Assembly: GCF_019972295.1 (NCBI RefSeq)
Contig: NZ_BLJA01000001.1
Location: 528,049 to 592,048, forward strand
Reading direction: 5' to 3'
From: Geobacter sp. AOG2
GTDB taxonomy: Bacteria; Desulfobacterota; Desulfuromonadia; Geobacterales; Pseudopelobacteraceae
Length of the DNA: 64,000 nt
Positions 27,114 to 61,554 of this stretch are shown piece after piece. Each line of letters starts with the position of its first letter. Within the stretch, counting starts at the first letter, position 1. The position numbers and the translations under genes are program-made. The notes under the pieces were generated by a model that was given only the letters and a program-made list of their open reading frames with translations, ran no database searches and had not been told where the DNA came from.

Positions 27114-27944
27114 TCAGCGTTGTGGCGGCGGAGCCGTGCTCTCCAACCCGATTTCCTCCAGAACGGCAATGGTGTGTGCCGGGACCAGGATGCTTTCGTC
27201 GTGGCGGGAGGCCAGTTTGAGGGCCTTTACCACCGGGATCATGCTGGCAAGGTCGACGGGGATGTCCACATCGGGAACGGCCTCCACGACACCCAGGGGG
27301 ATTTTCTTGAGCGAAGCCTTCAGCACCAGCATATCCAGGGCCGTTATCCCCTCCTGATTGTAAAAGACCCCTTTGAAGTCGAACGGGGTGGTGCAGGTGT
27401 AACCGACTATGGAGAAGCCGCCCTCCTGGCACGCCCCTTCCACCACAGCCGCCCCAAGGTGCGGGTCGGCGCCGTTCGTTTCTTTTGTCGCCGCCAGTCC
27501 CGCCTTGCTGCCGGCAAGCTTTTTTATCTTTCCGACCGCATCCCGGAGTATGTTGGGCTGCAAGGTGGGGATATCTCCTCCGACGATCACGATGCTGTCG
27601 GCAACCTTTGCGGAGCCGTTTTCCTTGAGGATGTAATCCGCCGCATACTGCATGCAGTTGTCGAAGCTGCCGCCCTGGTCGGGGAACAGTTCCTTGATCT
27701 GCGACCGGTCGGATACCTTTTCGAGCAAGGTTTCCAGATAGTCCACATCACCCGTATGGTTGTAGCAGATGCGGACATCGCCGCTGTTTGCGGCGATGCA
27801 TACATTGATCACATCCAGGAGGCAGCCTTCGTACAATGCCATGGCCTCATCCGCGGTGAGGATCCCGCCCCTGTTCGTCGTGAGGCGAGTCTTGGTCTCT
27901 CCGGATTTGGGGACCTTGGTGAAAACAACTATTGTGTTTCGCAT
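27114..27944 (-). CDS. DUF2064 glycosyltransferase-like protein (TIGR04282 type), copy 1
   Basis: A 276-residue GT-A-fold protein of the DUF2064 family, often annotated as an arsenosugar-type glycosyltransferase. The nucleotide-binding N-terminus is IVVFTKVPKSGETKTRLTT, and SIVIVGGDIPTLQPNIL carries the metal-binding GGD; DQGGSFDNCMQYA and YTCTTPFDFKGVFYNQEG are further conserved segments. The ATG at 27944 follows GAGG. It is the first gene after sigma-54 promoter I. A second, clearly homologous copy is at 45657 in another operon of the same regulon. The sugar donor and acceptor are unknown. Confidence 0.82.
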   Translation of the reverse strand: MRNTIVVFTKVPKSGETKTRLTTNRGGILTADEAMALYEGCLLDVINVCIAANSGDVRICYNHTGDVDYLETLLEKVSDRSQIKELFPDQGGSFDNCMQYAADYILKENGSAKVADSIVIVGGDIPTLQPNILRDAVGKIKKLAGSKAGLAATKETNGADPHLGAAVVEGACQEGGFSIVGYTCTTPFDFKGVFYNQEGITALDMLVLKASLKKIPLGVVEAVPDVDIPVDLASMIPVVKALKLASRHDESILVPAHTIAVLEEIGLESTAPPPQR

Positions 27945-28073
27945 TGCGTACCTCGCCTTCCTGTTGTTTGCCGCTGTGGAAATCCTGCCGGTCGCGGTCA
28001 TGGCTTCACGGCGGAGTTGTTTCCCTGAAACATCCCGAAACAGACCTCTTCAGAAGGTTGCCATCCAGGTATG

Positions 28074-28188: not shown

Positions 28189-28527
28189 TGCACGGACGCC
28201 GTGACGGCCGGCTTGTTTGATACGGGGTGATCGGGGGTGGTGGTGGGCGGAGGCGGCTTGCCCTGGAGGCGGATTTGCGCGGCAGACAACCGGTGGTCGC
28301 CTGGGTGCGGAATTGCCGAAGTCGGGCAGGGAGACCGGCATGCCGGTTCTTTCCTGAAACACGTGGGGCTGGGCTTGCCGGCCCTTTTTACCTGAAGGCC
28401 CGGCAACCGATTGATGTCTGGATCAGGGGAAATAAGAGCTTGCAATATAAAAAAGTATCAATACTATTTAATCCCTCGATGAAACCTTTTACGGAGAATA
28501 AGGCCTGCTCCGGCCGACGTGAGACCC

Positions 28528-29361
28528 ATGGGAATATATCTTAAAAGGACCGCTCCCGATCCGGTTTTCGACACATTCATGGCTACCTTCCTTCATCTGG
28601 AAGGCTTTGCCGCCAAGTCGAACAAATTGATCAAGGTGGAAGGCATGGTCGGGTATCCGGACCCTCTCACGGAGGTGCAGCAGAAGATACTTACTGCGGC
28701 AATCGCGCTCATTCATGCCGCCGGCGAGACCGACCCTTCCCAAACGTCATACTCCATGGAGGTCGGAAGGTTCATGGAGATGTGCGCCCCCGGCCACGAC
28801 AACCCCTCCCTGCCGTCGGCCGACGAAATCGAAAAGATACTTAAAAAGGGACTCTGGCTCGTTGACAAAAACAAAAGGATGCTGACAAGGACCGCCTGGT
28901 TCCAGTCCATCGAGTATGCCGGCGGGCGGATCGTCTTCCAATTTGCCGAAAAGATCCTCCCCCTGATTCTCAAATTTGTCCCCGATGACGACGAATACAG
29001 CCAGGTCAAGGGAATCCAGTACAAGGGGAGACATACCCTTGCCGTTTTCAACATGATCTGGCACTGGCGGGGCAGGGGGGTCACCGAATATTCCATCTCG
29101 CAGCTCATGGAGCAACTCGCTCTCGAACATACCCGCTATTCGTACGGTCAACTGAAGCTCCGGGTCTTGGAGCCCTCCTTTGCGGAGATCTATGCTTGGG
29201 ACGACTCGATATTCATCCGTTTCGGGCCGACGTTTTCAGGGCGCAGGGTCGAAAGTGTCTGGTTTGAAGTAACCGTGGGAGAAAAGGCCAGGGAGTTGCG
29301 GAAGAAGGAGCCCGAGTTCAAGGTGGCCCAACCCGGGGAAAAGCCCGCCAGGACGCTGTAA
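28528..29361 (+). CDS. Rep_3-like replication initiator protein
   Basis: The 277-residue protein matches the layout of Rep_3-type plasmid initiators: two winged-helix halves, the second with RIVFQFAEKILPLIL, a LAVFNMIWHW segment, a helix-turn-helix region YSISQLMEQLALEHTRYSYGQLK and the closing SGRRVESVWFEV. No iterons or partition genes were found nearby, so it is unlikely to mark an active plasmid origin; chromosomal relatives exist in Geobacter. Start: ATG at 28528 with a weak ribosome binding site. It lies between two regulon promoters facing opposite ways and may be a remnant of the element that brought the region in. Confidence 0.55.
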   Translation: MGIYLKRTAPDPVFDTFMATFLHLEGFAAKSNKLIKVEGMVGYPDPLTEVQQKILTAAIALIHAAGETDPSQTSYSMEVGRFMEMCAPGHDNPSLPSADEIEKILKKGLWLVDKNKRMLTRTAWFQSIEYAGGRIVFQFAEKILPLILKFVPDDDEYSQVKGIQYKGRHTLAVFNMIWHWRGRGVTEYSISQLMEQLALEHTRYSYGQLKLRVLEPSFAEIYAWDDSIFIRFGPTFSGRRVESVWFEVTVGEKARELRKKEPEFKVAQPGEKPARTL

Positions 29362-36527: not shown

Positions 36528-38177
36528 TCAGGAGGCTGCCCCGCCCCGCCCCGAACCCTGCGCTTCATATTCTTTAAGCTTGCGATACAGCGTGGCCAAT
36601 CCGATATTCAGCTCGGCCGCCGCCTGGGCCTTGTTGTCTCCCAAGGCATTGAGAACACCCAGGATATAGTCGCGCTCCACTTCATCCAGCGGACGGATAC
36701 AGCCCGATACCGTCGGCTGCAACGACATGGCCCGCAGTTCGCAGGGCAAGTCGCAGACGTCCACATGGCTTTCCTGGCACATGGCAACGGCGTACTCGAC
36801 CGTGTTCTGCAGTTCCCGGACGTTGCCCGGCCAGCTGTAGTGCAGCAACTGGTCGGCGGCATCCGGGGTGAACCCTATGATGGTGCGTCCCATGGCATGG
36901 GTGATCTTGTGCAGGAAAAACCGTGCCAGGGGAAGAATGTCCTCATTGCGTTCACGCAGGGGCGGTACATGCAGTTCGATCACCCGCAGGCGATAATACA
37001 GGTCCTGGCGAAAACGTCCGGAGGCGATCTCTTCCGTCAGGTTACGGTTGGTGGCGGCGACCACCCGTACGTTGGTGGGGCGGGACTTGTTTTCTCCCAC
37101 CCGCCGCACTTCGTGTTCCTGAAGGGCGCGCAGCAACTTTACCTGCATGCCCGGCGACACCTCGCCGATCTCGTCCAGGAACAGGGTTCCGCCGGATGCC
37201 GCTTCGAAGAGCCCCGCCCGCTCCCTGTCCGCGCCGGTAAAGGAGCCTTTCGCGTGTCCGAACAGTTCGCTCTCCAGGAGCGTCTCGGTAAGCGCTCCGC
37301 AGTTCACGGCCAAAAACGGTCCGCACGTCCGCGAAGACTGGTCGTGGATAAAGCGGGCCATGAGTTCCTTACCCACGCCGCTATCTCCGGTTATCAATAT
37401 GGAAGAATCCACTTTGGCGACGCGCCAGGCAATATCGACAATCCTGCGCATGGACTGGCTGCGGGCCATGATGAGCGGCGGGGCCTCGGCCCCCTCCAGG
37501 AACGCCAGTTGGGATTGCCGGTTCTTCAGTTTCTTTTCCGTGCAATTGAGCTTGGCGCTCAGATCCTTGAGCAGGGTGGGGAAGGATTCCATGCGGTAAT
37601 AGACGAGATGGGGTTCGATCTCCGGCCCCCATTTCTCCTTGTAGCGTGCCGTGACATGGCAGATCGGATCGCCCTTTCCGCGGCACTGGTCTTCAATGAA
37701 GATAACCTCCCGCCCCTCGGCGTAGGACGAGTAACCGCTGGCGAAGGCCGTCTCCGTCCAGCAGACCGCTTCGTCCGACCTCCCGATGTGCAGCAGGTGC
37801 TGTTCGGCTTCGTAGCAGTCGCCCCAGTTGGAGGAGATCAGCGGTTCGTCGCCTTCTCCATCGGTTCGTATGTTGTGGTGGACGCCGAGCTGGCCGGTTA
37901 AGGCATGGAGTTTCGACCCCGCATATCCTTTCGAGTCCTTCCAGACCTCCGGCATGTTCTGTTGGATGTTCATGGCCGTGCGCCAGCCGTTTGCATAGCC
38001 GTACCTGGTAAGGATATTGCGGGCGGCGAAGGTCCCCAGGGTGTCGATAAGTTCCTTGCGCAACAGCCCTTGGGCGAAGGCGTTCATCAGGAGCGCCCTC
38101 TCCCCCAACAGCTTCATTACGCCCCCTTCGGGGTTGAATGACAGCAACTCACGCAGGTCCATGTCGTCGATTCTCAA
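36528..38177 (-). CDS. sigma-54-dependent activator with XylR_N and V4R sensor domains
   Basis: About 549 residues. The N-terminal XylR_N domain (DLRELLSFNPEGG, then IQQNMPEVWKDSKGYAG) is followed by a V4R domain with the conserved CRGKGDPICHV. The central AAA+ domain (about residues 230-460) has Walker A GDSGVGKE, the sigma-54-contacting loop as GSFTGA, and Walker B GTLFLDEIGE. The C-terminus has a Fis-type helix-turn-helix (NKAQAAAELNIGLATLYRKL). XylR, DmpR and PoxR share this architecture and bind aromatic effectors directly. The start is uncertain: TTG at 38177 (after GGGGG), TTG at 38189 or ATG at 38162. A UAS pair begins 14 bp upstream, so it probably regulates itself and the ten promoters with the same sites. 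Confidence 0.92.
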   Translation of the reverse strand: MRIDDMDLRELLSFNPEGGVMKLLGERALLMNAFAQGLLRKELIDTLGTFAARNILTRYGYANGWRTAMNIQQNMPEVWKDSKGYAGSKLHALTGQLGVHHNIRTDGEGDEPLISSNWGDCYEAEQHLLHIGRSDEAVCWTETAFASGYSSYAEGREVIFIEDQCRGKGDPICHVTARYKEKWGPEIEPHLVYYRMESFPTLLKDLSAKLNCTEKKLKNRQSQLAFLEGAEAPPLIMARSQSMRRIVDIAWRVAKVDSSILITGDSGVGKELMARFIHDQSSRTCGPFLAVNCGALTETLLESELFGHAKGSFTGADRERAGLFEAASGGTLFLDEIGEVSPGMQVKLLRALQEHEVRRVGENKSRPTNVRVVAATNRNLTEEIASGRFRQDLYYRLRVIELHVPPLRERNEDILPLARFFLHKITHAMGRTIIGFTPDAADQLLHYSWPGNVRELQNTVEYAVAMCQESHVDVCDLPCELRAMSLQPTVSGCIRPLDEVERDYILGVLNALGDNKAQAAAELNIGLATLYRKLKEYEAQGSGRGGAAS

Positions 38178-38190
38178 TGGTGCCCCCAAT

Positions 38191-38980: not shown

Positions 38981-39961
38981 ATGAAGCTTACTGACTCCCT
39001 CGGGAGAACCATAAACTATCTGCGGCTGTCGGTTACCGACCGTTGCAACATGCGCTGTTCCTATTGCATGCCCGCTCATGGCGTCTCCAAGATGTGTCAC
39101 GACGATATCTTGAGATACGAAGAACTGCAACAGATCGCGGAAGCCGCCGTGAGCATCGGAATCGAGAAGGTGCGGATCACGGGCGGCGAACCCCTGGTGA
39201 GGGCCGGCATCGTGGACTTTCTCGCCGGCCTTGCGGAAATCAGGGGATTGCGCCACCTGGCATTGAGCACGAACGGCGTCCTGCTGAAAAGAATGGCCGC
39301 CGACCTGCGCACAGCCGGAGTGCAAAGTCTCAATGTGAGCCTCGACTCCCTGAAGCGTGAGGTGTTTTCCGCCGTCACCCGCGGCGGCGATCTGGATATG
39401 GTGCTGGCCGGCCTGGATACGGCGGAAAAGGTCGGCTTTCCGGCGCCCAAAATCAACATGGTGGTCATGCGCGGGGTCAACGACGCTGAAATCCTCGATT
39501 TCGCCGAACTGACCATCAGTCGTGGCAACTCCGTGCGCTTCATCGAGTACATGCCGGTGATCAAGGAGTCCGGCTGGCAGCATTACTGCGTCCCGGGCGA
39601 AGAAATTCTGCAACGCATCGCGACGCGCCACTTGCTGGTCAACGTGGACAAGGGGGCTTTTGCCGGTCCTTCCCGCGATTTCCGTATTCCGGGGGCTCGC
39701 GGCACCATCGGCATCATCACCGCAGTGTCGGGCCATTTCTGCGGAGAGTGCAACCGTATCCGGGTTACCAGCGACGGCAAGGGCAAAGGGTGTCTGTTTT
39801 CCGATGAAAAAACCGACCTGCTCCATTGTCTGCGCCCTCTTGATCGCCTGAAGCTGAGACGTACCCTCAGGGATATCGTCATGGCGAAACCTGAACGGCA
39901 TAATATCTCCTTTACCGGGTATGAGCACGAAAATTTTACGATGGCACAGATTGGAGGGTAG
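38981..39961 (+). CDS. moaA: GTP 3',8-cyclase MoaA
   Basis: MoaA makes the first intermediate of molybdopterin from GTP by radical SAM chemistry. The 326-residue protein has the N-terminal cluster motif CNMRCSYCM near residue 22, the SAM segment ITGGEPL and the C-terminal second cluster motif CGECNRIRVTSDGKGKGC. The usual C-terminal GG tail is replaced by AQIGG, which still ends in two glycines. Start at 38981 after GGAGG. It is followed one base later by a MOSC-domain gene. It may be transcribed from promoter F or from an unrecognised closer promoter. Confidence 0.95.
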   Translation: MKLTDSLGRTINYLRLSVTDRCNMRCSYCMPAHGVSKMCHDDILRYEELQQIAEAAVSIGIEKVRITGGEPLVRAGIVDFLAGLAEIRGLRHLALSTNGVLLKRMAADLRTAGVQSLNVSLDSLKREVFSAVTRGGDLDMVLAGLDTAEKVGFPAPKINMVVMRGVNDAEILDFAELTISRGNSVRFIEYMPVIKESGWQHYCVPGEEILQRIATRHLLVNVDKGAFAGPSRDFRIPGARGTIGIITAVSGHFCGECNRIRVTSDGKGKGCLFSDEKTDLLHCLRPLDRLKLRRTLRDIVMAKPERHNISFTGYEHENFTMAQIGG

Positions 39962-40840: not shown

Positions 40841-41154
40841 GATACTACATGAAAATCATCATCAGCGGTCGTTTCGATAAGGGCTCCGGAAGCCTTCGTC
40901 ACGAAAAGCGGGAAAGATCAAGCGGGAATATTTTTTAAATGTATCAAGTTGTCCGGCAACTGGTCTTGCCATTATCGGTATTGAATTATGTGAATACTAT
41001 TTGCTGTCGATATTAAATAAAACTTTCACTGTGAAGATTATTTAATATCTGTATCTGCAATGATATCACCAATAGAAGAAAGGAGGTGTACTGAAAATAT
41101 AAAAGCAGAATTTGACTGTTGGCTATATAACTAAAAGAAGGGATGGGTGAAACG

Positions 41155-43413
41155 ATGAAAAAAGAATGGAAAGTACAGAATGAAGATGGATCCTATACCG
41201 TCAGGACATGCGGCTGGTCGCCACCGGGCGATCATCCGGTGGGCTGCGGTATGTTCCTGCACGTCAAGAATGGTATGCTCGAAAAGGTCGAGGGTGACCC
41301 CGAGCACCCGATCACCAACGGCAGGCTCTGTATCAGGTGCCTGACCTTGCCCGAGTATGTGCATCATCCTTCGCGTATTACCACCCCCATGAAAAGGGAC
41401 TTTGCGGACCGCGGTAAGGACAAGTGGACCAAGATTTCCTGGGACGAGGCATGGGATATCATTGTTCCCAAGGTCAAGCAGCTGAAGGCCGATCACGGGG
41501 CGGAATCCATCGTCGTCTTCGGCGGCACCGGTCGCGAGGCGTGTTTGTACTATTACCCGCTCGGTTTTGCTTCACTCGGAACTCCCAACGTATGTTACCC
41601 CCTGAGCGGTTGGTCCTGCTATGGCCCCCGTTGCGCCATTACCGACTACATCCTCGGCGCGGGCTACCCGGAGATCGATAACGCCGGTTACTATCCGGAC
41701 CGTTATGACAACCCCGCCTATACGTTGCCCAAATATATCATGGCATGGGGCAAAAACCCCCTCATGTCGAACCCGGACGGCTTCTTCGGCCACTCCTACA
41801 TCGACATGATGAAACGCGGTACCGAACTGATCATCATTGACCCGCGTATCACCTGGCTCGGTTCCAGGGCCAAATACGTATGCCAGCTCCGTCCCGGTAC
41901 GGATACCGCCCTGGCCCTGGCTTTCCTCAACGTCATCATCAACGAGGACCTGTACGACCATGACTTCGTCGATAACTGGACCTACGGCTTCGACGAGTTG
42001 AAAGAGCGCGTCCAGGAATATCCGCCCGAAAAGGTTGCGGAAATCACCTGGGTACCGAAAGAAAAGATCATCGAAGTGGCACGGCAGTTTGCAACCTGCA
42101 AGCCCTCCACCATTCAGTGGGGCCTGGCGGTCGACGAAAACCCGAACGGCGTGCAACTCGGTCACTGCATCCTGACCCTCGCCGCCATTACGGGCAACCT
42201 GGACGTTCCGGGCGGCATCACCCTCGGACCCCCGGCAGCCCTGCTCGGCAAATGGCGTGTGGAAACCCGCCGCAATCTGTCCGAGGAACTCTGGGACAAG
42301 CGTATCGGCGCCAAGGAATGGCCGGCACTCAGCACGGCATTGGCCACGACCCATCCCGACGAAACCCTGGATACCCTGGAAACGGATAAACCGTACAAGT
42401 TGCGGATGGGCTGGTTCAACAGCAGTAACTTCATCACGCCTACCTGTTCGGCTGCACCGCAGAGATGGCACAAAGCGCTCCAGAAACTCGAATTCTGCGT
42501 TGTGCAGGATTGCTTCATGACGCCTACGGCCATGGCATTCGGCGATATCTTCCTGCCGCTGCCCACCTTCGCCGAGCATGACGGCGTCGTCATCACCCAC
42601 TTCGGCCGCAACTCCGTGTTCCTCGGCGCCATCAACGAAGCCCTGCGTGTCGGCGACACCCGGTCCGACATCGAAGTCTGCATCGAACTCGGCAAAAAAC
42701 TGCACCCGGATATGTGGCCTTTCGACGACGTACCCGACTTCTTCACCAAGCAGATCCAGCCGGAGTTGGGTATTACCTTCGACGACCTGCGGGAGCTTGG
42801 CGTGTACCAGCCGGCATATACGTACCGCAAGTATGAAACGGGCGGCCTCCGTTCCGACGGCGAGCCCGGATTCAATACGGTAACCGGCATGGTCGAATTG
42901 ACCTCGACCCTGTTCGAGGCCTGGGGCGACGATGCACTCCCGTATTACAAAGAGCCTCCCTACAGCCCCGTCAGCACGCCGGAACTCTTCAAGGAGTACC
43001 CGCTGGTGCTTACGACCGGCGCGAGGAAGTTCACCTCGTTCCACTCCGAACACCGGCATATCGCGACCCTGCGGGAGATCGATCCCGGCCCGATCGTCGA
43101 GATGCACCCGGATACCGCTGCAAATCTGGGCATTATCGAAGGCGACCATGTCATGCTGGAAAACATGTTCGGCAAGTGCAAGATGAAGGCGAAGGTGACC
43201 CCGACCATTCATCCGAAGGTCGTTCACGCCACACACGGCTGGTGGTATCCCGAAAAACCGGCCGATGAGCCGAGCCTGTATGGTGTCTGGGAGGCTAACA
43301 TCAATACTCTGGTGCCGCACAAACATATCGGAAAACTCGGTTTTGGCGCTCCGCTCAAACAGATGATCTGTAAGGCTTACAGGGTTGAACCTGATCATAC
43401 CTTTAGCCTGTAG
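41155..43413 (+). CDS. molybdopterin oxidoreductase (DMSO reductase family), Mo enzyme 1
   Basis: The 752-residue catalytic subunit binds the bis-MGD cofactor (IISWDEAWDIIVP-type start, then AWGKNPLMSNPDGF, LIIIDPRITWLGSRA and RPGTDTALALAFLNVI). The family resemblance is to acetylene hydratase, pyrogallol transhydroxylase and catechol dehydroxylases. The N-terminal Fe-S site is unusual: after TCGWSPPGDHPVGCG the first two cysteines are eleven residues apart instead of two, with RLCIRC at the end. The Mo ligand is probably the Cys of GWSCYG. There is no signal peptide, so it is cytoplasmic. A small two-cluster ferredoxin follows 77 bases later. Promoter A precedes it. The substrate is unknown; a hydroxylated aromatic or an alkyne hydration-type reaction is possible. 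Confidence 0.85.
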   Translation: MKKEWKVQNEDGSYTVRTCGWSPPGDHPVGCGMFLHVKNGMLEKVEGDPEHPITNGRLCIRCLTLPEYVHHPSRITTPMKRDFADRGKDKWTKISWDEAWDIIVPKVKQLKADHGAESIVVFGGTGREACLYYYPLGFASLGTPNVCYPLSGWSCYGPRCAITDYILGAGYPEIDNAGYYPDRYDNPAYTLPKYIMAWGKNPLMSNPDGFFGHSYIDMMKRGTELIIIDPRITWLGSRAKYVCQLRPGTDTALALAFLNVIINEDLYDHDFVDNWTYGFDELKERVQEYPPEKVAEITWVPKEKIIEVARQFATCKPSTIQWGLAVDENPNGVQLGHCILTLAAITGNLDVPGGITLGPPAALLGKWRVETRRNLSEELWDKRIGAKEWPALSTALATTHPDETLDTLETDKPYKLRMGWFNSSNFITPTCSAAPQRWHKALQKLEFCVVQDCFMTPTAMAFGDIFLPLPTFAEHDGVVITHFGRNSVFLGAINEALRVGDTRSDIEVCIELGKKLHPDMWPFDDVPDFFTKQIQPELGITFDDLRELGVYQPAYTYRKYETGGLRSDGEPGFNTVTGMVELTSTLFEAWGDDALPYYKEPPYSPVSTPELFKEYPLVLTTGARKFTSFHSEHRHIATLREIDPGPIVEMHPDTAANLGIIEGDHVMLENMFGKCKMKAKVTPTIHPKVVHATHGWWYPEKPADEPSLYGVWEANINTLVPHKHIGKLGFGAPLKQMICKAYRVEPDHTFSL

Positions 43414-43490: not shown

Positions 43491-43829
43491 ATGTCTAAAC
43501 GCAACGGATTATTGATAGATTACGAATACTGCACAGGCTGCCACAGCTGTGAAGTTTCATGCAAGAACGAGCACAAAATACCCAGGGGCCAATGGGGTAT
43601 CAAGATGACGGAAGTGGGCCCCTTCCAGATCAACGCCGATAAGTGGGAATGGAACTATGTCGCCGTCCCGACCCAGCTCTGCGATCTCTGTGCGGACAGG
43701 GTCGCCGAGGGCAAAGTGCCGTCGTGCGTCCTTCACTGCCTTGGCGGATGCATGGAATACGGCCCTGTCGATGAGCTTGCCAAGAAGATGCAGGAAAAAG
43801 GCAAGAAAGTCGCTCTCTTTGCCCCCTGA
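43491..43829 (+). CDS. two-cluster ferredoxin subunit of Mo enzyme 1
   Basis: A 112-residue iron-sulfur protein related to the electron-transfer subunits of DMSO reductase-type enzymes (DmsB/NrfC type), but shortened. It keeps CTGCHSCEVSC and the pair CDLCADR / CVLHC, enough for two [4Fe-4S] clusters, and lacks the two middle binding motifs. The start follows GGAGG. It is the obvious redox partner of Mo enzyme 1. With no membrane subunit next to it, electrons probably come from or go to a soluble carrier. Confidence 0.87.
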   Translation: MSKRNGLLIDYEYCTGCHSCEVSCKNEHKIPRGQWGIKMTEVGPFQINADKWEWNYVAVPTQLCDLCADRVAEGKVPSCVLHCLGGCMEYGPVDELAKKMQEKGKKVALFAP

Positions 43830-43906: not shown

Positions 43907-44200
43907 TCAGCCCAAGTGCGATGGGTCCTCAGTGTCATCCACCGGGGTGTGATACTTGCACGTTTCGATTGCGGCTCCTTTTTCAACGGTTTTTTTGTGC
44001 TTGTTGCAGGGAGTGGCGCAGATTTTACCGATGTAAAGGCACAGTACCGGAATGGGCTTCGGTACCTCCGGCACGGGCGTACCGCACCGCTTGCACGTTT
44101 TCAGTTCGGGAAAGCAATAGGCATTGCAGGTAGGGCATTTCACCGGTTTCGGTTTTGGCGGCTTGCAGCCACCGCAGTACGGGTTGCATGACCAGCACAT
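43907..44200 (-). CDS. 97-residue cysteine-rich zinc-ribbon-like protein
   Basis: The protein has 12 cysteines: MCWSCNPYCGGC at the start, CPTCNAYC and CKRCG (a zinc-ribbon-like pair), then CLYIGKICATPC and a final CKYH. A KPPKPKPVK linker follows the first cluster. The ATG at 44200 has GAAAGG seven bases upstream. It is transcribed away from the 66-residue protein gene at 44470. No sigma-54/UAS cassette was found in front of it. It may bind zinc or an Fe-S cluster; no family is recognised. Confidence 0.65.
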   Translation of the reverse strand: MCWSCNPYCGGCKPPKPKPVKCPTCNAYCFPELKTCKRCGTPVPEVPKPIPVLCLYIGKICATPCNKHKKTVEKGAAIETCKYHTPVDDTEDPSHLG

Positions 44201-44469: not shown

Positions 44470-44670
44470 ATGGCTGACGATCAAACAAGCAACGTGCCGC
44501 CGCGCAAAAAGATTGAAAAACCGCTCAATCCGCTTGCTGCAAAACCGGGCCAGAAGTATGATTCCACCAAATACCAGCCGACGAAAGAGTACGAAGGCGG
44601 GAAACTGAAGGACAGCGGAGACAAGACCGAAGGCGGGATCGACGTAGTAGAGCATGCAAAGCAAAAATAG
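44470..44670 (+). CDS. 66-residue charged small protein
   Basis: A Lys-rich, probably disordered protein (PPRKKIEKPLNPLAAKPGQKYD, then TKYQPTKEYEGGKLKDSG) without cysteines. The start follows AAAAAGGAGATGGC, a good ribosome binding site. It stands alone between AT-rich DNA and the long hairpin at 44754. No family recognised. The Lys/Tyr/Gly repeats (KYD, KYQ, EYEGGK) look like a nucleic-acid- or protein-binding tail. Confidence 0.6.
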   Translation: MADDQTSNVPPRKKIEKPLNPLAAKPGQKYDSTKYQPTKEYEGGKLKDSGDKTEGGIDVVEHAKQK

Positions 44671-45140: not shown

Positions 45141-45156
45141 TGGCATGCTCGTTGCA
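45141..45156 (+). promoter_or_regulatory. sigma-54 promoter B
   Basis: TGGCATGCTCGTTGCA with the GG-N10-GC core, 85 bases before the gene at 45241. Confidence 0.85.
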
Positions 45157-45240: not shown

Positions 45241-45561
45241 ATGTTCACAACAAAATTTGATGGTAACGACCTCACTGTTAATATCGAGGAAACCGTACAA
45301 AAGGAATTGATGGGAAAAGGCATCAACCCGATCGAAGTCTTCAGGCTGATAGAAAGCTTTGCCAGCAAGATCCTGGTCCTGAAAGAAGACAATTTTTTGC
45401 AGTTATCAAATGAAGACACCGGCGCCGGTTTTGGCCTCGATATCAAATGGGAGTCGGATACGAAGGCCTCGGTCGACGTTACCATATTGAATCTTGAGAA
45501 CCTTACCATCGATGGGAAGCCGAAAGCCAAGGTAAACCTGGCGGACTTCCCCGTAGAGTAG
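45241..45561 (+). CDS. uncharacterised 106-residue protein, family X copy 1
   Basis: An acidic, beta-rich small protein without cysteines, signal peptide or membrane segment. It is homologous to the 95-residue protein at 46609: both share a helix with RLIESF followed by KIL/KLL, and a later D(I/V)(K/Q)WES strand followed by a valine-rich strand and N(L)D/E. The ATG at 45241 follows GAAAGGAAAG. It is the first gene after promoter B and is followed by the second DUF2064 gene. The family is unknown to me; it may be a carrier or a binding partner for the DUF2064 protein. Confidence 0.75.
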   Translation: MFTTKFDGNDLTVNIEETVQKELMGKGINPIEVFRLIESFASKILVLKEDNFLQLSNEDTGAGFGLDIKWESDTKASVDVTILNLENLTIDGKPKAKVNLADFPVE

Positions 45562-45656
45562 CTGCGACTATATCAGGGTATCCGTAATGTCCGGTATGCG
45601 TGATTAAACAGTACGGGGGAAGCCGTGTTCAGGCGACTGCGCCGGGGGGATGGCAC

Positions 45657-46478
45657 ATGTTGAATGCTGTTGTGGTATTTACAAAGATACCCAAGGCCGG
45701 CGAAACGAAAACAAGGCTGACAACTGACCGCGGAGGGGTTCTGACGCCGGAAGAGGCAACGGAATTCTATGAGGCGTGTCTTCTGGACGTACTTGACAGT
45801 TGCGTGGAGTCGGCGTGTTGCGATGTGTATCTCTGCCATAACGCCGATGGGGACCGCGACGGCCTGGAACGGCTCCTGAAGAAGGTTCCTCCCCTGAAAG
45901 GCGTTTTTCCGGATCGGGGCGGGACCTTCGACAAGGCCATGCAGTATGCCGTCGATCATATTCTTAAGGGCGGCGCTTCCGCCAGGCTCGCGGACGCGGT
46001 TCTGATCGTCGGCGGCGATATGCCTTCGTTGCAGCCGGCCACAATTCGCAAGGCGTTCGGAGAGCTTGAGCGCCTGGCGGCCCTCGGACGTCCCGAGCCG
46101 ACGGATGGCGCCGAACCGCGCATCGGGGCGGCAATGGTCGTCTCGGCCGATCAGGAGTGTGGCTTCAACCTGCTGGGGTACACCTGTTCGACGCCATTCG
46201 ATTTCGGCGGGGTCTTTTATAATCGGGACGGTGTTACCGCCCTGGATATGGTTTCATTCAAGGCGCGGGAAAAGGAGATCCCCCTCGGTATCCTCGAAAT
46301 CGTGCCCGATATCGATGTCGTCGTGGACTTTGCCGGTTTCATCTCGGTAGTGAAAACCATGCAGGTGGCCGCAAAGCACAGTTCTTCCATTTTGTTGCCC
46401 CAAAGGACTATTCAGGCTTTGCAGGCCCTGGGGCTGGAGGCTTCCGCGCCGGTACCCGACGGATACCGGGCCGCCTGA
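45657..46478 (+). CDS. DUF2064 glycosyltransferase-like protein (TIGR04282 type), copy 2
   Basis: This 273-residue protein is a close paralog of the one at 27114: VVVFTKIPKAGETKTRLTTDRGG, DAVLIVGGDMPSLQP, YTCSTPFDFGGVFYNRDG and KEIPLGILEIVPDID all recur with few changes. The GGD metal motif is intact. Family members are annotated as arsenosugar-type glycosyltransferases or nucleotidyltransferase-like proteins. Two copies in separate sigma-54 units suggest that the activity is needed in quantity or on two substrates. Start: ATG at 45657, after GGGGGATGG. Confidence 0.82.
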   Translation: MLNAVVVFTKIPKAGETKTRLTTDRGGVLTPEEATEFYEACLLDVLDSCVESACCDVYLCHNADGDRDGLERLLKKVPPLKGVFPDRGGTFDKAMQYAVDHILKGGASARLADAVLIVGGDMPSLQPATIRKAFGELERLAALGRPEPTDGAEPRIGAAMVVSADQECGFNLLGYTCSTPFDFGGVFYNRDGVTALDMVSFKAREKEIPLGILEIVPDIDVVVDFAGFISVVKTMQVAAKHSSSILLPQRTIQALQALGLEASAPVPDGYRAA

Positions 46479-46608
46479 GCCGGCTGTAAGGCCGGTGTGC
46501 GTGGCCGTTTGATAACTATTTCAATTTGATAATGCCTGTCTGACATCACGCGTGCCGATATCGGCAGGCCGATTCGTTAACCGAGAAAGGGAGGAGGTGT
46601 ACAGCACT

Positions 46609-46896
46609 ATGGAACAGACAAAATATGACTGCGGCAATCTCAGGGTCGTTATGGATGCGTCTCTGATGACCGGCCTTACGGAACAAGGGGTTATGGTCGA
46701 TGAAGTCAAGCGGCTGATAGAAAGTTTCGGGAACAAGCTGCTGATGACGAAAGCTACCGGTGAGATCGATTTTACCAACAAAACGTCGGGCGCCAGCATG
46801 AAGCTCGATGTCCAGTGGGAATCCGAGCACTCCGCCGTGGTTTACGTCAAGGACGTGAATCTCGACCCCAAGAGGGAAAAAGCCGCTCTGGCTTGA
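46609..46896 (+). CDS. uncharacterised 95-residue protein, family X copy 2
   Basis: A paralog of the protein at 45241. The shared core is EVKRLIESFGNKLL and KLDVQWESEHSAVVYVKDVNLD; overall identity looks near 30 percent by eye. It has one Cys (YDCG) and ends with a Lys-rich tail. The ATG at 46609 follows GGAGGTG closely. It is the last gene of the B transcription unit, 130 bases after the DUF2064 gene, so two family-X genes bracket a DUF2064 gene. Confidence 0.75.
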   Translation: MEQTKYDCGNLRVVMDASLMTGLTEQGVMVDEVKRLIESFGNKLLMTKATGEIDFTNKTSGASMKLDVQWESEHSAVVYVKDVNLDPKREKAALA

Positions 46897-46956
46897 TGTC
46901 GCAGGCTGTGAAGATTTCTCGTTCATGGCCGTCTCAATTCGGTTTTCCGGGATCGC

Positions 46957-46992
46957 GCCACCGGCAGCATGAAAAATCGTGCCGCCGGTGGC
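46957..46992 (+). terminator. hairpin after the B unit
   Basis: GCCACCGGC / GCCGGTGGC, no T tract. The region 46993-47454 shows no gene. Confidence 0.45.
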
Positions 46993-47454
46993 ACGCAACC
47001 GCGATGTGCTCCCGTCCCTGTCGGCTGCGGCGATCCTCCGCCCGTGGCTTCCCGTCTTCTCCCCCGTAATGTCTGCGGCACCCGCGTATCCCCGCCGCTG
47101 TTCTCCCTGGCGGCCTCGTCGACGCTCGTACGAGGCAGGTCCCGTTCCCCTGGTATCGTGAAACAAAATACGCGACAGAGCCACAGGCAGATTGACGTCT
47201 TGCCTCCCCCGGCCGTGTGTGGAATCCCCGATACGACCTCAGTAGTAAATTAATAATTTCAAAATTTTCGATCTAGAAAACCACATACTGTTTACGGTTT
47301 GTTGCTGATTTTCACGGAATAACCTGCCGTTGCTGCCTGGAAACTTCATAGTTGCGACGCCGGCGCCGCTCCATTACTGGATTTGACGCGGATATGTCCA
47401 TATTTTTCGCGGCACGGCGGCCGCCAAGTCCTCCATAACTTGTTTTATTCCTTC

Positions 47455-51873: not shown

Positions 51874-54114
51874 ATGAGCAAAAATGTCGATTTGGAACAA
51901 GAAGGCGTCGAGGTAAGGAAGTCGGCCTGTTACTTTTGCCACCAGAATTGTGGCGTACTGGCCTACGTCAAGGACGGGAAGGTGCTCGCGATCGAAGGAG
52001 ATCCCGACTTTCCCACGAACCAGGGGGGCTTGTGCTGCCGGGGAAACATCGCCCTGCAACACCTCGACCACCCGGAGCGGGTGAACTACCCGCTCAAACG
52101 CGTCGGCAAGCGCGGTGAGGGGAAATGGGAGCAAATCCCCTGGGATCAGGCGATCCAGGAGATCGCCGCCAGGCTGAACGGCATCAAGGATGAGTTCGGC
52201 GCGGAAGCCGTGGCCACCGCCGGCGGGACGCAACGCACGGATGACTGGGCGCGCCGGCGTTTCATGAATCTGTTCGGCAGTCCGAACGGTTTCCACAACT
52301 CCCACCTGTGCTGGATTCCCACGTTCATGGTGGAAACGGCCATCTACGGCTGGTGTCCGTTTGAACTGGACATGGGCAATAGCCGCTGCCTGATCCTCTG
52401 GGGGCAAAACCCCGGTGCCGCGGGTATGCCGGAGATGCACCACATAACCGAGTTCCAGTCCAAGGGGATGAAGGTTATCGTCATCGACCCGCGTTTCAGC
52501 GAAACAGCCGCCAAGGCCGATCTCTGGCTGCCGCTCCGCCCCGGCTCCGACCTGGCGCTGGCGCTGGCGTGGATCAACGTCATCATCTTCGAAGGCCTGT
52601 ACGATCAGGAGTTTGTGGCCAATTGCTGCGAAGGCTTCGGCGAGCTGGCCGATCATGTCGAGCAGTTCACGCCGGAATGGGCTTCGCCCCTGACCTGGCT
52701 GACACCGGAACAGATCCGGGCGGGCGCCTATATGTATGCCATGAATAAGCCGGGCAATATCCAGTGGGGCACCTCCGTGGACCAGATCGGCAAGCCGGCC
52801 GGTTCCGCCATGCACGCCCGCGCGATCCTGCGTGCCATAACCGGCAACCTGGACGCCCCCGGCTCCGACCTCCTGACCGGTCCCAGCCCCGACTTCATTA
52901 CCGACGAGGAGATGGAGGCCAACGACCGGTTGCCGGAGAGCCAGAAACCCAAACAGATCGGTGCCGACCGCTTCAAGTTGGTCACCTGGCCCGGCTACAG
53001 CCGCATTGCCGAAGAAACCAAAAAGGTATGGGGCAAGGCGCCGACGGCGGAATGGATGTGCGAAGCCCACCCGCCATCAGTGTTCAGGGCGATTCTGACG
53101 GAGCGACCCTACAAGGTCAAGGCGCTCCTGGTTTCCGCCACCAACCCGATCAATTCCTACGGCGAAACCAAGCTGGTGCTGGATGCGTTGCGGGCCGTGG
53201 ACTTCATGGTCACCTGCGACTACTGGATGACGCCGACCGCCGCGCTCTCCGATTACGTGCTGCCCATCGCCGGCGCCCTGGAACGGCCGACCATCACCAG
53301 CAGCTACGGCTGCTCCGACTTCCTGCTCGCTTCGCAGCGCGCCATCCAGCCGATGTACGAGCGCCGCAACGACTACAACTTCTGGCGCGACCTCGGCATG
53401 GCAACCGGCCAGAAAGAGGAGTGGCCCTGGGAGACGGTGGAAGACGCCTATTATCACCGCATCGCCCCGCTCGGCTACGATGCCGGCACCTACGACGAAT
53501 TCGTCGAGTTGTACCGCTTCCACTTCCCCGAGCGCGAATATTTCAAATACCAGAGACAGGGATTCGCCACGCCCTCGGGCAAGGTCGAGCTCTACTCCTC
53601 CGTGCTCAAGGACCTTGGCTATCCTCCCTTGCCCCCGTATATCGGGCCTTCGGAAAACGAGGTCGACGACCCGGAACTGGCCAAGGATTTCCCGCTGGTT
53701 TTGACGACGGGCGGCGGTTTCATGCCGTACCACCACTCGGAACATTTCCAGATCAAGGAGGTGCGTTTCCTGCGCCATGAGCCGTATATGGATATCAATC
53801 CGACAACGGCCGCCGAGCTGTCCATCGAAGACGGCGACTGGGTATGGATCGAAACGAAACGCGGCCGTATCAAGCAGAAAGCCAACCTGACCCAGGGGAT
53901 TCACCCCCGCGTCGTCTATACCCAGCGAGGCTGGTGGTACCCGGAGCGGGACATGCGCGATCCGGAACTGGGGGGCTGCCTGGAATCGAACACCAACGTT
54001 CTGACCAGTACCGCCGACGAGCATTGCGATCCCTACAGCGGCGCCTGGGCGAACCGGGGTTTGCTCTGCAGGGTCTACAAGGTGGATGCTTCAAATCTAA
54101 AGGGGGGCAAATAG
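51874..54114 (+). CDS. molybdopterin oxidoreductase, catalytic subunit, Mo enzyme 2
   Basis: The 746-residue subunit has a standard [4Fe-4S] motif CYFCHQNCG ... CC near residue 20 and a bis-MGD fold (WDQAIQEIAARL, LILWGQNPGAAGMPEM, VIVIDPRFSETAAKADLW, RPGSDLALALAWINVI). The Mo ligand is probably the Cys of SHLCWIP, at the place of Cys141 in acetylene hydratase. No Tat or Sec signal is present, so the enzyme is cytoplasmic. The next two genes encode a four-cluster ferredoxin and an NrfD-type membrane subunit, giving a CISM-like complex linked to quinone. Close relatives by motif are acetylene hydratase and transhydroxylases; the reaction is unknown. Confidence 0.88.
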   Translation: MSKNVDLEQEGVEVRKSACYFCHQNCGVLAYVKDGKVLAIEGDPDFPTNQGGLCCRGNIALQHLDHPERVNYPLKRVGKRGEGKWEQIPWDQAIQEIAARLNGIKDEFGAEAVATAGGTQRTDDWARRRFMNLFGSPNGFHNSHLCWIPTFMVETAIYGWCPFELDMGNSRCLILWGQNPGAAGMPEMHHITEFQSKGMKVIVIDPRFSETAAKADLWLPLRPGSDLALALAWINVIIFEGLYDQEFVANCCEGFGELADHVEQFTPEWASPLTWLTPEQIRAGAYMYAMNKPGNIQWGTSVDQIGKPAGSAMHARAILRAITGNLDAPGSDLLTGPSPDFITDEEMEANDRLPESQKPKQIGADRFKLVTWPGYSRIAEETKKVWGKAPTAEWMCEAHPPSVFRAILTERPYKVKALLVSATNPINSYGETKLVLDALRAVDFMVTCDYWMTPTAALSDYVLPIAGALERPTITSSYGCSDFLLASQRAIQPMYERRNDYNFWRDLGMATGQKEEWPWETVEDAYYHRIAPLGYDAGTYDEFVELYRFHFPEREYFKYQRQGFATPSGKVELYSSVLKDLGYPPLPPYIGPSENEVDDPELAKDFPLVLTTGGGFMPYHHSEHFQIKEVRFLRHEPYMDINPTTAAELSIEDGDWVWIETKRGRIKQKANLTQGIHPRVVYTQRGWWYPERDMRDPELGGCLESNTNVLTSTADEHCDPYSGAWANRGLLCRVYKVDASNLKGGK

Positions 54115-58060: not shown

Positions 58061-59383
58061 ATGAATACATCCGAAATACCTGCTGACACCGTGCTTTTGA
58101 ACAGCACGCAGAGCGTCTGCCCGGTCTGTCTGGCGGTTGTCGACGCCCGGATCGTTGCCGAAGGCACAACCGTTCATATGGAAAAAGAGTGCCCGGAGCA
58201 TGGGCGGTTCAGGACGTATCTGTCGCCGGATGTGGAGCATTATCGCTGGATGGACGCTTTCAGGTTCCCCTTCGTAAAGCCGGAACGGCCCGCGCCCGCC
58301 TTGAAAGGATGCCCCGAGGATTGCGGTTTGTGCACGGCGCACCGGCGTCATTCGACGCTGGTGGAGATCGAGCTTACGCAGCGCTGCAATTTGCGCTGCC
58401 CGGTCTGTTTCATGGCTGCCGAAGCACTGCAGGCGGCGGCGCAACCGGGGCCGGACCTGGCGGCGCTGGAAACCATGTACCGGGCGATCATGGGAAAAAC
58501 CGGCCCCTCCACCAGCATCCAGCTTACCGGCGGCGAACCGACCATACGCAAGGATCTGCCGGATATCGTCCGCCTGGGCAAACGAATCGGCTTCGAAGCC
58601 ATCGAGGTCAATACCAACGGCGTGGTGATCGCCAGGAACCCGGAGCTTGTGACCGAACTGCTCGAAGCGGGAATAAGCGGCATCTACATGCAGTTCGACG
58701 GCCTGACCTCCGAGGTGTACGACAAGATCCGCGGCGAGGACCTGTTGCAGATCAAACAGCAGGCCATCGAAAACTGCCGGAAAGCCGGGGTCCAGGTCGT
58801 TCTTGCCATGACGATCATCGAGGGCATCAATCATGACCAGCTCGGCGCGGTGTTGCGCTTCGCCCTGCAAAACCGCGATGTGATCGCCGGCGTCGCCTAC
58901 CAGCCGGCCTTCGGCTCCGGGCGCTTCGACGTCTCCAACGAGCGGCGGCTTACCATGGGGGATGTGGCCAATCTTCTGGCCGAACAGAGTAACGGCATCC
59001 TGACCCCCTATGACCTGTGGCCTTTGGGGTGTTCCCATCCCGCCTGCGATTCCGCGACCTATATCGTTGAAGACCAGGGGCGGTTCAGGCCGCTCACCGG
59101 CATGATCACGACTGAAGAGTATGTGGAGCATTTCGATCCGGACAGCCCCCAGGGCTCCGTGCTCCCGGATATCGCCGACAGGATGTTCCCCGAACTTGGG
59201 CCGGGTTTGTCGATCGTGGTGATGAGCTACATGGATGCCATGAACATGGATCTCAAACGGCTCAGGGAATGCAGCATGACCGTAGCCGGGCCGAATGGGG
59301 AACTGATCCCGTTTTGCTCGTACCAGTTGACGAATATCCACGGAAAGAAGAGGTCGGAGATCGGCTCGGGGAACGCGGCATGA
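58061..59383 (+). CDS. radical SAM protein of the Tes/TrsS type
   Basis: The 440-residue protein has an N-terminal zinc-ribbon-like part (VCPVCLAVVDARIV, then KECPEHG), a bridging CPEDCGLCTAH, the radical SAM motif CNLRCPVCF near residue 108, a SAM-binding LTGGEPT and a later CSHPACDSATY. This layout is shared by tetraether-lipid synthases (Tes) and the TrsS family of radical SAM (seleno)proteins. Its stop overlaps the start of Mo enzyme 3 (ATGA), so the two are made together. Substrate unknown: a lipid, a cofactor or a pathway intermediate are all possible. Confidence 0.82.
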   Translation: MNTSEIPADTVLLNSTQSVCPVCLAVVDARIVAEGTTVHMEKECPEHGRFRTYLSPDVEHYRWMDAFRFPFVKPERPAPALKGCPEDCGLCTAHRRHSTLVEIELTQRCNLRCPVCFMAAEALQAAAQPGPDLAALETMYRAIMGKTGPSTSIQLTGGEPTIRKDLPDIVRLGKRIGFEAIEVNTNGVVIARNPELVTELLEAGISGIYMQFDGLTSEVYDKIRGEDLLQIKQQAIENCRKAGVQVVLAMTIIEGINHDQLGAVLRFALQNRDVIAGVAYQPAFGSGRFDVSNERRLTMGDVANLLAEQSNGILTPYDLWPLGCSHPACDSATYIVEDQGRFRPLTGMITTEEYVEHFDPDSPQGSVLPDIADRMFPELGPGLSIVVMSYMDAMNMDLKRLRECSMTVAGPNGELIPFCSYQLTNIHGKKRSEIGSGNAA

Positions 59384-61554
59384 ACGGGACGGTAAAGACG
59401 AACTGCCGTTTTTGCGGCTATCAATGCGGTCTGACGGCGAGGGTCGAGGATGGCCGGGTTGTGGCGGTGGAGCCCGATCCGGCCCAGTACCCCGGCGATG
59501 CGTCGATCCAGCGCGGCTGCCACAGGTGGCGTCTGGTGCCCGAATTCCTGGACCATCCCGAGCGGATCAACCATCCCCTGAAGCGGGTGGGGGAGCGGGG
59601 CGGCGGGAAGTGGGAGCGCATCACCTGGGACCAGGCACTGGACGAGATCGCGGGCAAGCTCGCCGCGCTCAAGGACCGGTTTGGCCCCGAGACCCTTGCG
59701 AGCTGCATCGGCGGGCCGCATGCGGTATTCTGGCCCCTGCACCGGTTCATGACCCTGTTCGGCAGCCCCAACAACGTGGGGATCGGCCAGATCTGCTGGA
59801 ACCCGGGCACCTTGATCAATTCCGTGACCTACGGCTGGACGATCGACAACGAGCTTGATCCGCACGTCACCAAGTGCGCCATCCTCTGGGGCGTCAACCA
59901 GGCCGAGTCGGACAACTCGTTGCTCTGGCACCGGATCATGGCGTTCGGCCGCACGGGGAAGCCCCTGGTCGTGATCGACCCCCGGCGCACCCGGACCGCC
60001 GAGCGGGCCACCCACTGGCTGGCGGTGCGCCCCGGTACGGATGCCGTTCTCGCCATGGGGTTCATCAATGTCATCATAACCGAGCGGCTCTACAACAGAG
60101 CCTTTGTGGAGGCCTGGTGCCACGGCTTCGACCAGCTGGCGGCGCAGGCGGCTCCGTACACCCCGCAGTATGTGGAAACCGTTACCGGGATAAGGGCGGA
60201 GGTTGTGGCCGAGGTCGCCCGCCTCTATGCCGGGAACACGCCGTCGTCGTTGTTTTCCGGGCGCGGGGTGGACCAGATCGGACGAAACAGCGTCCCCGCC
60301 CACCACGCCTTTGCGTCTTTGCGGGCAATCACCGGGAATCTGGATGCAAAGGGCGCATCGCACCTGACGGAAATGCCGGATTTCGTCCCGGAGGTGGACC
60401 TGGAGTTGAGCGAGCAGTTCCCGGAGTCGTTGCGCGCCAAGCAACTTGGCGACCTGAAGCTGCAATCGTACCGGACGTACGAACGTATCCGCCAGTTGAC
60501 CCTGAAACACGGCAAGCGCCTTCCCATGCGCTATCTTACCTCGGCCCAGCCCAACCTCGTCTGGCGGGCCATGCTGACGGGAGAGCCGTATCCCATACGC
60601 TCGCTCATCGTCATGGCAACCAACCCGCTCCTGACCCAGGCCGACTCCGCCCTGCTGTACGAGGCCCTGAAAAGCCTGGACCTCCTCGTGGTCCTGGAAT
60701 TGTTCCAGACCCCCACATCCATGCTGGCAGACTACGTGCTGCCCAGCGCCGGGGCGCTGGAGCGGCCGTTGTTCGAGACAAAGGCCGGGACGGCCAACCT
60801 GATCTACGGCGGCGCGAAAGCCGTGGAACCGTACTACGAGCGCCGTTCCGATTTCGATTTCTGGAGCAATCTTGGCCGCCGGCTCGGCCAGGAAGCGTAT
60901 TGGCCGTGGGAAAGCTTCGAGGCAAGCCTGGAAGAGACACTGGCCCCCACGGGGGTCGGTTGGGACTTGTTTTGTCAGTATGGCCTGTATAACCTGCCGG
61001 AAGAATACGGAAAACACGAGCGCATCGATCCCCGGAGCGGCAAGCCGGCCGGATTCGCCACCACGACCGGCAAGGTCGAGCTGTATAACGAACTGCTTGC
61101 CGGGATCGGCGGGGACCCTCTGCCGTCCCCCAAGCCGTTTGAACAGCCGGGGAGGGATTTCCCGCTGCAACTCATCACCGGGGCGCGGTATCAGCCGTTT
61201 TACGCCTCCAGTTTCCGCCAGTTCGATTCGCTGAGGGCGCTTCACCCCGAACCCTGGGCTGAGGTCAGCAGCGCCACCGCCGCCAGGCTGGGGCTGGAGG
61301 ACGGTTGCCGGGTATGGGTCGAGACGGAACGCGGCAAAGCGAGTTTTATGCTGAAAATCTCGCCGATGTGCGATAATGTCGTGAGTGTGGAATACGGCTG
61401 GTGGTACCCCGAAATGCAGGCGTCCGAACCCACCCTCGGCGGTCTCTGGCTTTCCAATGCAAACGTCCTGACCAGCGCCGATTATGACGCCTCCGATCCG
61501 TTGATCGGCACGGCGACCTATAACGGCATCCCCTGCCGCGTGCTGGAGATATGA
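59380..61554 (+). CDS. molybdopterin oxidoreductase, Mo enzyme 3
   Basis: A 724-residue DMSO reductase-family enzyme. The N-terminal cluster motif is CRFCGYQCG ... GC; cofactor segments are WDQALDEIAGKLAALK, ILWGVNQAESDN, VVIDPRRTRTAERA and RPGTDAVLAMGFINVI. The likely Mo ligand is the Cys of GQICWNPG, as in acetylene hydratase. No signal peptide, no ferredoxin and no membrane subunit follow, which would suit a non-redox reaction such as hydration or transhydroxylation, or a soluble partner. It starts within the stop of the radical SAM gene. Confidence 0.87.
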   Translation: MNGTVKTNCRFCGYQCGLTARVEDGRVVAVEPDPAQYPGDASIQRGCHRWRLVPEFLDHPERINHPLKRVGERGGGKWERITWDQALDEIAGKLAALKDRFGPETLASCIGGPHAVFWPLHRFMTLFGSPNNVGIGQICWNPGTLINSVTYGWTIDNELDPHVTKCAILWGVNQAESDNSLLWHRIMAFGRTGKPLVVIDPRRTRTAERATHWLAVRPGTDAVLAMGFINVIITERLYNRAFVEAWCHGFDQLAAQAAPYTPQYVETVTGIRAEVVAEVARLYAGNTPSSLFSGRGVDQIGRNSVPAHHAFASLRAITGNLDAKGASHLTEMPDFVPEVDLELSEQFPESLRAKQLGDLKLQSYRTYERIRQLTLKHGKRLPMRYLTSAQPNLVWRAMLTGEPYPIRSLIVMATNPLLTQADSALLYEALKSLDLLVVLELFQTPTSMLADYVLPSAGALERPLFETKAGTANLIYGGAKAVEPYYERRSDFDFWSNLGRRLGQEAYWPWESFEASLEETLAPTGVGWDLFCQYGLYNLPEEYGKHERIDPRSGKPAGFATTTGKVELYNELLAGIGGDPLPSPKPFEQPGRDFPLQLITGARYQPFYASSFRQFDSLRALHPEPWAEVSSATAARLGLEDGCRVWVETERGKASFMLKISPMCDNVVSVEYGWWYPEMQASEPTLGGLWLSNANVLTSADYDASDPLIGTATYNGIPCRVLEI

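Follow-up and report, generated by a model that had tools for sequence, protein, structure and literature searches.

Gene Content and Organization of the A/B Locus

The window, as we term the entire 64,000-nucleotide stretch of DNA analyzed here, carries on its forward strand two genes for small proteins, A (45241–45561; 106 amino acids) and its paralog B (46609–46896; 95 amino acids). They bracket a DUF2064 gene (45657–46478, forward strand), the second of its kind in the surrounding gene cassette, whose product of 273 amino acids, counted from the ATG at 45657, matches Pfam family PF09837 (E = 2.6e-16; 60 bits compared to a cut-off of 25.8). Reading frames, lengths and gene order agree with those given in the original prediction for this DNA, which had also proposed that A and B are homologous; an ungapped alignment over 86 amino acids with 37% identity (E = 2e-17) bears this out. 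When the 3.92-Mb genome of origin was searched with A at E ≤ 1, A and B were the sole matches. The start codons of both genes are preceded by purine-rich, Shine-Dalgarno-like stretches. The DUF2064 protein between them retains the KTRL and GGDxP motifs in the alignment and, judging from its family, is predicted to have a MobA/CofC-like nucleotidyltransferase fold; the first DUF2064 gene of the cassette lies on the reverse strand (27114–28001) and adjoins a DUF169-ferredoxin gene.

In an alignment of 15 family sequences, seven residues are invariant (K5, E32, L36, E38, F40, N57, and W70), R35 belongs to the conserved positions as well, and Ser39 is kept in 14; the isoelectric points of these members range from 4.5 to 5.1. 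The alignment contains no conserved cysteine, and the C-terminal Gly-Gly that is a feature of MoaD/ThiS sulfur carriers is absent from all 15 C-termini.

A sigma-54 (-24/-12) promoter-like site (45141–45156, forward strand), a perfect match to TGGCAYRNNNNTTGCW, precedes A at a distance of 84 bases. Four other perfect sites occur within the window, and with up to one mismatch the window contains 11 matches, compared to a mean of 2.44 in shuffled sequences (none of 100 shuffles reached 11); as a caveat, a match to the consensus does not prove a promoter, and sites with one mismatch are so frequent that chance could account for them. Comparable sites were found upstream of A in related genomes, designated here by G numbers: in G125 (perfect) and G117 (one mismatch), upstream of an MFS-A-B gene group in G092 (perfect), and, with one mismatch, ahead of A or of the gene that opens its apparent operon in G599, G562, G553, and G608; the G102 contig has no such site upstream of MFS-A-B. 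Between the sigma-54 site and the end of B, the forward strand shows no terminator-like site. Just past B, a G+C-rich inverted repeat (46954–46995; 19-nucleotide arms, 84% complementary, separated by 4 nucleotides) is terminator-like on the reverse strand only, and possibly marks the end of the A-DUF2064-B unit. The original prediction of one sigma-54 unit is upheld as far as the promoter-like site is concerned; A, DUF2064, and B are presumably transcribed together. A candidate regulator of this unit is the sigma-54 activator encoded at 36528–38189 (reverse strand), in which a profile search detected a XylR_N domain and, below the cut-off, V4R; in known cases, regulators of the XylR_N/V4R type sense aromatic effectors. 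The cassette is probably under sigma-54 control.

Distribution and Phylogeny of the A/B Family

Searches of Pfam, NCBIfam and the PDB with the A/B family gave no convincing match. The best E values among the 15 members were 0.0065 in Pfam and 0.0059 in NCBIfam, each for one member; none exceeded a curated cut-off, and no single Pfam or NCBIfam family was matched by more than three of the 15. The profile searches hit no known domain, just as the original prediction had it when it assigned the two proteins to no known family.

Among 141 genomes of the order, five contain the family, each with both copies; in the four beyond the genome of origin, the A and B genes form two separate conserved sets. 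A ten-row query against 277 genomes of the class added five more distant genomes with one copy each (E = 2.5e-18 or better), for an accepted total of 10 out of 277; this class is the only one searched in full, and the phylum was sampled by 395 genomes. At E ≤ 0.01 the class search matched 14 genomes. Four of these (G583, G613, G401, and G440) were dropped as weak; their matches have E values of 0.002–0.007 and lie inside frames of 319–376 amino acids; the G583 frame has an internal stop, and the G440 frame presumably encodes a PilM-like protein, as read by eye. In the phylum sample, ten rows at E ≤ 0.01 matched the genome of origin, G401, and G440, with none newly accepted; 15 rows at E ≤ 0.1 matched seven genomes, consisting of the genome of origin and six partial matches (E = 0.02–0.09) that were dropped. 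One of the six, in G235, covers 25 residues of a 75-amino-acid frame and reached E = 0.0017 on a renewed search among locus frames; no further family member was found at E < 0.001 among all frames of the examined loci. On viral contigs, none of 47 pattern matches was confirmed as a relative, and plasmids, searched with A alone, yielded no relative. A pattern scan of a genome collection gave 102 matches, of which two were confirmed, in MAGs named as Desulfuromonadaceae and as Pelobacter sp.; by length and position these are the contigs of G092 and G102, and the patterns reach only close relatives.

The single-copy forms share 36–44% identity with A. In the family tree they cluster together (98/98) on the A side, and the five B sequences fall on one side of a branch with full support (100/100); the duplication is confined to one clade. 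The duplicated partners of the original prediction are accordingly found in five of the ten family genomes, and the other five have one copy, so that duplication is not general.

Predicted Structures

AlphaFold models of A (pLDDT 77.4, pTM 0.63) and B (pLDDT 80.5, pTM 0.69), computed from ten rows each, have moderate confidence and show one common beta2-alpha3-beta3 fold with a low-confidence tail. Foldseek found nothing at E ≤ 0.001 (best E values of 0.12 for A and 0.03 for B), and VIA found no match at a Z score of 8 or more; according to this tool, scores below 8 may reflect only a common arrangement. With VIA, B comes closest to RelE (Z 6.2; rmsd of 3.8 for 83 aligned residues), and chains of the RelE type make up a large part of its matches; A is closest to MAJIN (Z 6.1), with RelE at 5.8. 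These missing structural matches do not show that the fold is new.

Two types of small accessory protein were considered and rejected. Acyl carrier proteins are four-helix bundles, whereas both models have five predicted strands and three core helices. TorD-type molybdoenzyme chaperones have an all-helical fold, whereas A and B are modeled as mixed alpha/beta proteins, without a Pfam match of this type. Carrier-protein profiles matched none of the A/B members. Since a conserved cysteine, a C-terminal Gly-Gly and a carrier fold are all lacking, a covalent carrier is unlikely, and the carrier function that had been suggested initially has no support in this covalent sense; the subunit or binding protein named alongside it may still apply.

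The Molybdoenzyme Cassette

The genes surrounding A and B constitute a molybdenum- or tungsten-type enzyme island with a private cofactor pathway. Its enzymes include a PhsA-like molybdoenzyme (51874–54114, forward strand), which occurs in all ten family genomes, and a second molybdoenzyme (41143–43413, forward strand) whose best PDB match is acetylene hydratase (2e7z; E = 8.5e-77), with a gene for a small 4Fe-4S protein beside it (43491–43829, forward strand). A cassette copy of MoaA (38981–39961, forward strand; 355 bits, above the cut-off) is accompanied by MOSC, MobB, MobA, MoeA, MoaC, and MogA/MoaB-type genes. The PhsA-like and acetylene-hydratase-like enzymes, together with these cofactor genes, place A and B in molybdenum/tungsten enzyme biology. 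The original prediction had called the small proteins specific to "this system"; it had not recognized this molybdoenzyme setting with its private molybdenum-cofactor genes.

That prediction had also named, as evidence that would speak against it, family members never found near DUF2064 or the cassette. Instead, the ten family genomes are the ten that carry the cassette marker genes: they are the same ten that contain the PhsA-like enzyme at 78% identity or more, and the only ones with relatives, at 56% identity or more, of the metallo-beta-lactamase (MBL)-fold protein of the window (24809–25714, reverse strand); MBL-fold relatives with 38–40% identity occur in four further genomes. An eleventh genome, G572, has a PhsA-like enzyme with 70% identity, without detectable A. 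MoaA is present in two to four copies in all 11 genomes tested, and one copy lies within approximately 34 kb of A (in G572, of the cassette) on the same contig, or, in G102, beside other cassette genes. Cassette genes share a contig with A in nine of the ten family genomes; the exception is G102, where a 6.2-kb contig carries the MFS and Mod-type genes alone beside A-B, and the other cassette genes are found on other contigs. Co-occurrence alone is no proof of a direct link, as islands can move as a block.

Gene order differs among the family genomes. In the five distant genomes, genes for GNAT, MBL-fold, and flavin reductase proteins, MoaA, and A follow each other on one strand, with the MoaA orthologue directly upstream of the A-type gene and DUF2064 next in four of the five; next to this series, and oriented the other way, are the PhsA-like operon and a sigma-54 activator gene. 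In G092 and G102 the order is MFS, A, B, a ModE-like regulator with HTH and TOBE domains, and a ModABC-like ABC transporter of the molybdate type, to which G092 adds a ModD-like gene of the QRPTase family; these Mod-type names are our own reading, based on domain tests for the G092 genes and on translations for those of G102. Four genomes (G572, G005, G030, and G097) contain a related cassette in which neither A nor B was detected; a search for a diverged A in three of the cassettes without A gave a best E value of 0.82. DUF2064 adjoins the DUF169-ferredoxin gene in all four, followed on the same strand by MoeA, MoaA, MOSC, MoaC, MobA, and MobB in G005 and G030.

Several other genes were noted in the window and in related loci. 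A TrsS-like/Tes-like radical SAM gene (58061–59383) overlaps a third molybdoenzyme gene (59269–61554); its product matches the TrsS radical SAM (seleno)protein family NF045646 at 391 bits, below the cut-off of 490. This gene pair also occurs in G125, G092, G102, and the four cassettes without A, and was not seen in the stretches retrieved from the five distant genomes. Past the acetylene-hydratase-like and 4Fe-4S genes, a lysine-rich open reading frame of 66 amino acids (44470–44670; no Pfam or NCBIfam match) and, on the reverse strand, a cysteine-rich one of 97 amino acids (43907–44200; no Pfam match above the cut-off) have counterparts in G117, G092, G102, and G125, with 68–90% and 62–85% identity, respectively. 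The segment 29697–33287 of the island encodes a radical SAM protein with a DUF3641 domain (ArsS-like), a C_GCAxxG_C_C protein, an ArsM-like methyltransferase and a MIP channel. In G125, a gene for a radical SAM/ArsM-like/DUF5714 fusion protein of 1039 amino acids (locus L018, 6179–9298) lies directly upstream of A, and G611, G599, G562, and G553 have full-length relatives no more than 10 kb from A. A Rep3-type initiator replication protein encoded inside the island (28519–29361), with relatives in the G125, G092, and G102 islands, is a possible trace of plasmid origin. Finally, an outer-membrane-porin-like gene (22032–23369, reverse strand) has no Pfam match of its own; its G092 relative weakly matches DcaP.

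Association of A with DUF2064 Proteins

The DUF2064 tie of the original prediction is real: a DUF2064 gene is the immediate neighbor of A in seven of the ten family genomes, with gaps of 15–103 bases. The order A, DUF2064, B is found in G000, G117, and G125; the gene right after A is a DUF2064 member by Pfam in G599 and G562, and a BLAST relative in G553 and G611. The earlier picture of small proteins flanking DUF2064 has its exceptions in G092 and G102, where A and B adjoin each other and DUF2064 lies elsewhere, and in G608, which has neither an adjacent DUF2064 gene nor the A-linked type (this genome is 88% complete, and its A gene is on a 13.5-kb contig). Among the family matches, A was never seen fused to DUF2064.

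The A-adjacent DUF2064 proteins are of two kinds. Those of the window's clade group with the clade's other cassette DUF2064 (54% identity; support 96/93); those of the distant genomes form a very diverged lineage on a long branch near their other, higher-scoring DUF2064 copies, and this long branch makes their placement unsure. A tree in which the two A-linked groups were forced together was rejected (AU test, p = 0.0076), with long branches involved. Since two separate DUF2064 lineages adjoin A, the pairing was established or maintained with each of two distinct partners. The distant A-linked proteins keep the GGDxP motif and have lost KTRL in the alignment; with this loss they may not be working transferases.

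Nine of the ten family genomes have a DUF2064 gene of the A-linked type, and none of the four related cassettes without A does (Fisher p = 0.005, uncorrected for shared ancestry; G092 and G097 were typed by BLAST alone, and the third DUF2064 of G608 is of another type). The ten family genomes have three or four DUF2064 genes, compared to two each in G572, G005, G030, and G097, where one of the two is the higher-scoring copy elsewhere. The strongest argument for a functional pair is that A adjoins DUF2064 genes of two lineages and that this arrangement is missing where the family is missing; taken with the cassette setting, this distribution indicates that the DUF2064 link is real and belongs to molybdenum/tungsten cofactor biology.

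Possible Functions of A and B

Starting from the observed family, its co-occurrence with the cassette and its adjacency to DUF2064, our leading, if still tentative, reading is that A and B are acidic, non-catalytic proteins that work as partners with the second DUF2064 protein to mature the cassette's cofactor or enzymes. A and B would be small, soluble, acidic and probably non-catalytic accessory proteins of a molybdenum- or tungsten-pterin enzyme cassette; they would most likely bind the second DUF2064 nucleotidyltransferase-like protein, and could through it help to tailor the pterin cofactor or deliver it to the cassette molybdoenzymes. Since the gene is duplicated in the window's clade, the two proteins probably make up a two-part partner there; elsewhere one copy would suffice. 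We see a slim chance for a bolder variant, in which the MoaA-to-MobA pathway of the cassette and the extra DUF2064 protein would make an undescribed, nucleotide-modified variant of the pterin cofactor, with A and B as scaffolds that hold or hand over an intermediate.

Next in likelihood, and on balance rather unlikely, A and B could be chaperones dedicated to the PhsA-like or acetylene-hydratase-like molybdoenzyme of the cassette, or small subunits of it, and DUF2064 would then be no more than a neighbor. The PhsA-like enzyme accompanies A in ten of ten genomes and the acetylene-hydratase-like enzyme in four of the five close genomes (within the order searched), while its gene in G102 may fall into the assembly gap that separates contigs C42 and C13; moreover, the cassette proteins that were scanned, representing part of the island, include no TorD-type match. 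Yet in the loci that were read, neither A nor B is ever the immediate neighbor of a molybdoenzyme gene; the five distant genomes have A in a MoaA operon that diverges from the PhsA-like operon, and G572 has its PhsA-like enzyme without a detectable A.

It is improbable that the A/DUF2064 pair serves a metabolite pathway of the cassette rather than its cofactor, with A binding or presenting the metabolite. The ArsM-like methyltransferase, flavin reductase, GNAT, MFS, and MIP genes of the island would suit such a pathway, as would the radical SAM/methyltransferase/DUF5714 fusion near A in some relatives and the nearest NCBIfam family of both cassette DUF2064 proteins, TIGR04282 ("arsenosugar biosynthesis glycosyltransferase"), matched below its cut-off; the four cassettes without A point instead toward the cofactor, as their DUF2064 gene adjoins the DUF169-ferredoxin gene and is followed by the MoeA-to-MobB series in G005 and G030.

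Small proteins often ride in islands, and A and B might be regulators, or passengers under shared control, within the sigma-54 regulon and have no direct DUF2064 tie; the joint placement of A-B away from DUF2064 in G092 and G102, and the lack of an adjacent copy in G608, would be expected in this case. We regard this as improbable as well, given that A adjoins two separate DUF2064 lineages and that the A-linked type is absent from the four cassettes without A. Finally, RelE-like toxins or nucleic-acid-binding proteins, suggested by the RelE matches of both models, are very improbable: the Z scores stay below 8 and the Foldseek E values are poor, RelE/ParE toxins are basic and paired with an antitoxin gene whereas A and B are acidic, and no antitoxin-like gene was seen among the annotated neighbors (DUF2064, MoaA, MFS, and Mod-type genes).

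Comparison with Known Systems

In the literature collection searched, neither the term DUF2064 nor any report on the A/B family was found. A and B form a profile-less family that is linked to the poorly studied, nucleotidyltransferase-like DUF2064 proteins and to unassigned molybdoenzymes accompanied by cofactor genes of their own. They therefore offer a concrete handle on DUF2064 function, and they bear on the question of whether cassette-specific molybdenum or tungsten cofactors are made by some anaerobes. The DUF2064 gene flanked by A and B is a PF09837 member, whereas neither small protein matches DUF2064; with 65 bits compared to the TIGR04282 cut-off of 134, the product of that gene is not that equivalog. 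Acetylene hydratase, the best PDB match of the second molybdoenzyme, aligns from residue 44 of this enzyme onward, and the enzyme's gene has the 4Fe-4S protein gene beside it.

The case of Aromatoleum TC-10 (PMC8801600) shares with the window the combination of MoaA and a TIGR04282-type gene next to a molybdoenzyme: moaA and a TIGR04282 "fbiD" gene are found together beside iodate reductase genes, in a predicted mobile stretch. The work is concerned with iodate reduction, and the passages considered here mention no small protein of the A/B kind; the case is a sign from elsewhere that genes for MoaA and for DUF2064-type proteins can move together. An enzyme-plus-cofactor cassette is a known kind of system, and the A/B family represents a new accessory of such a cassette rather than a new kind of system.
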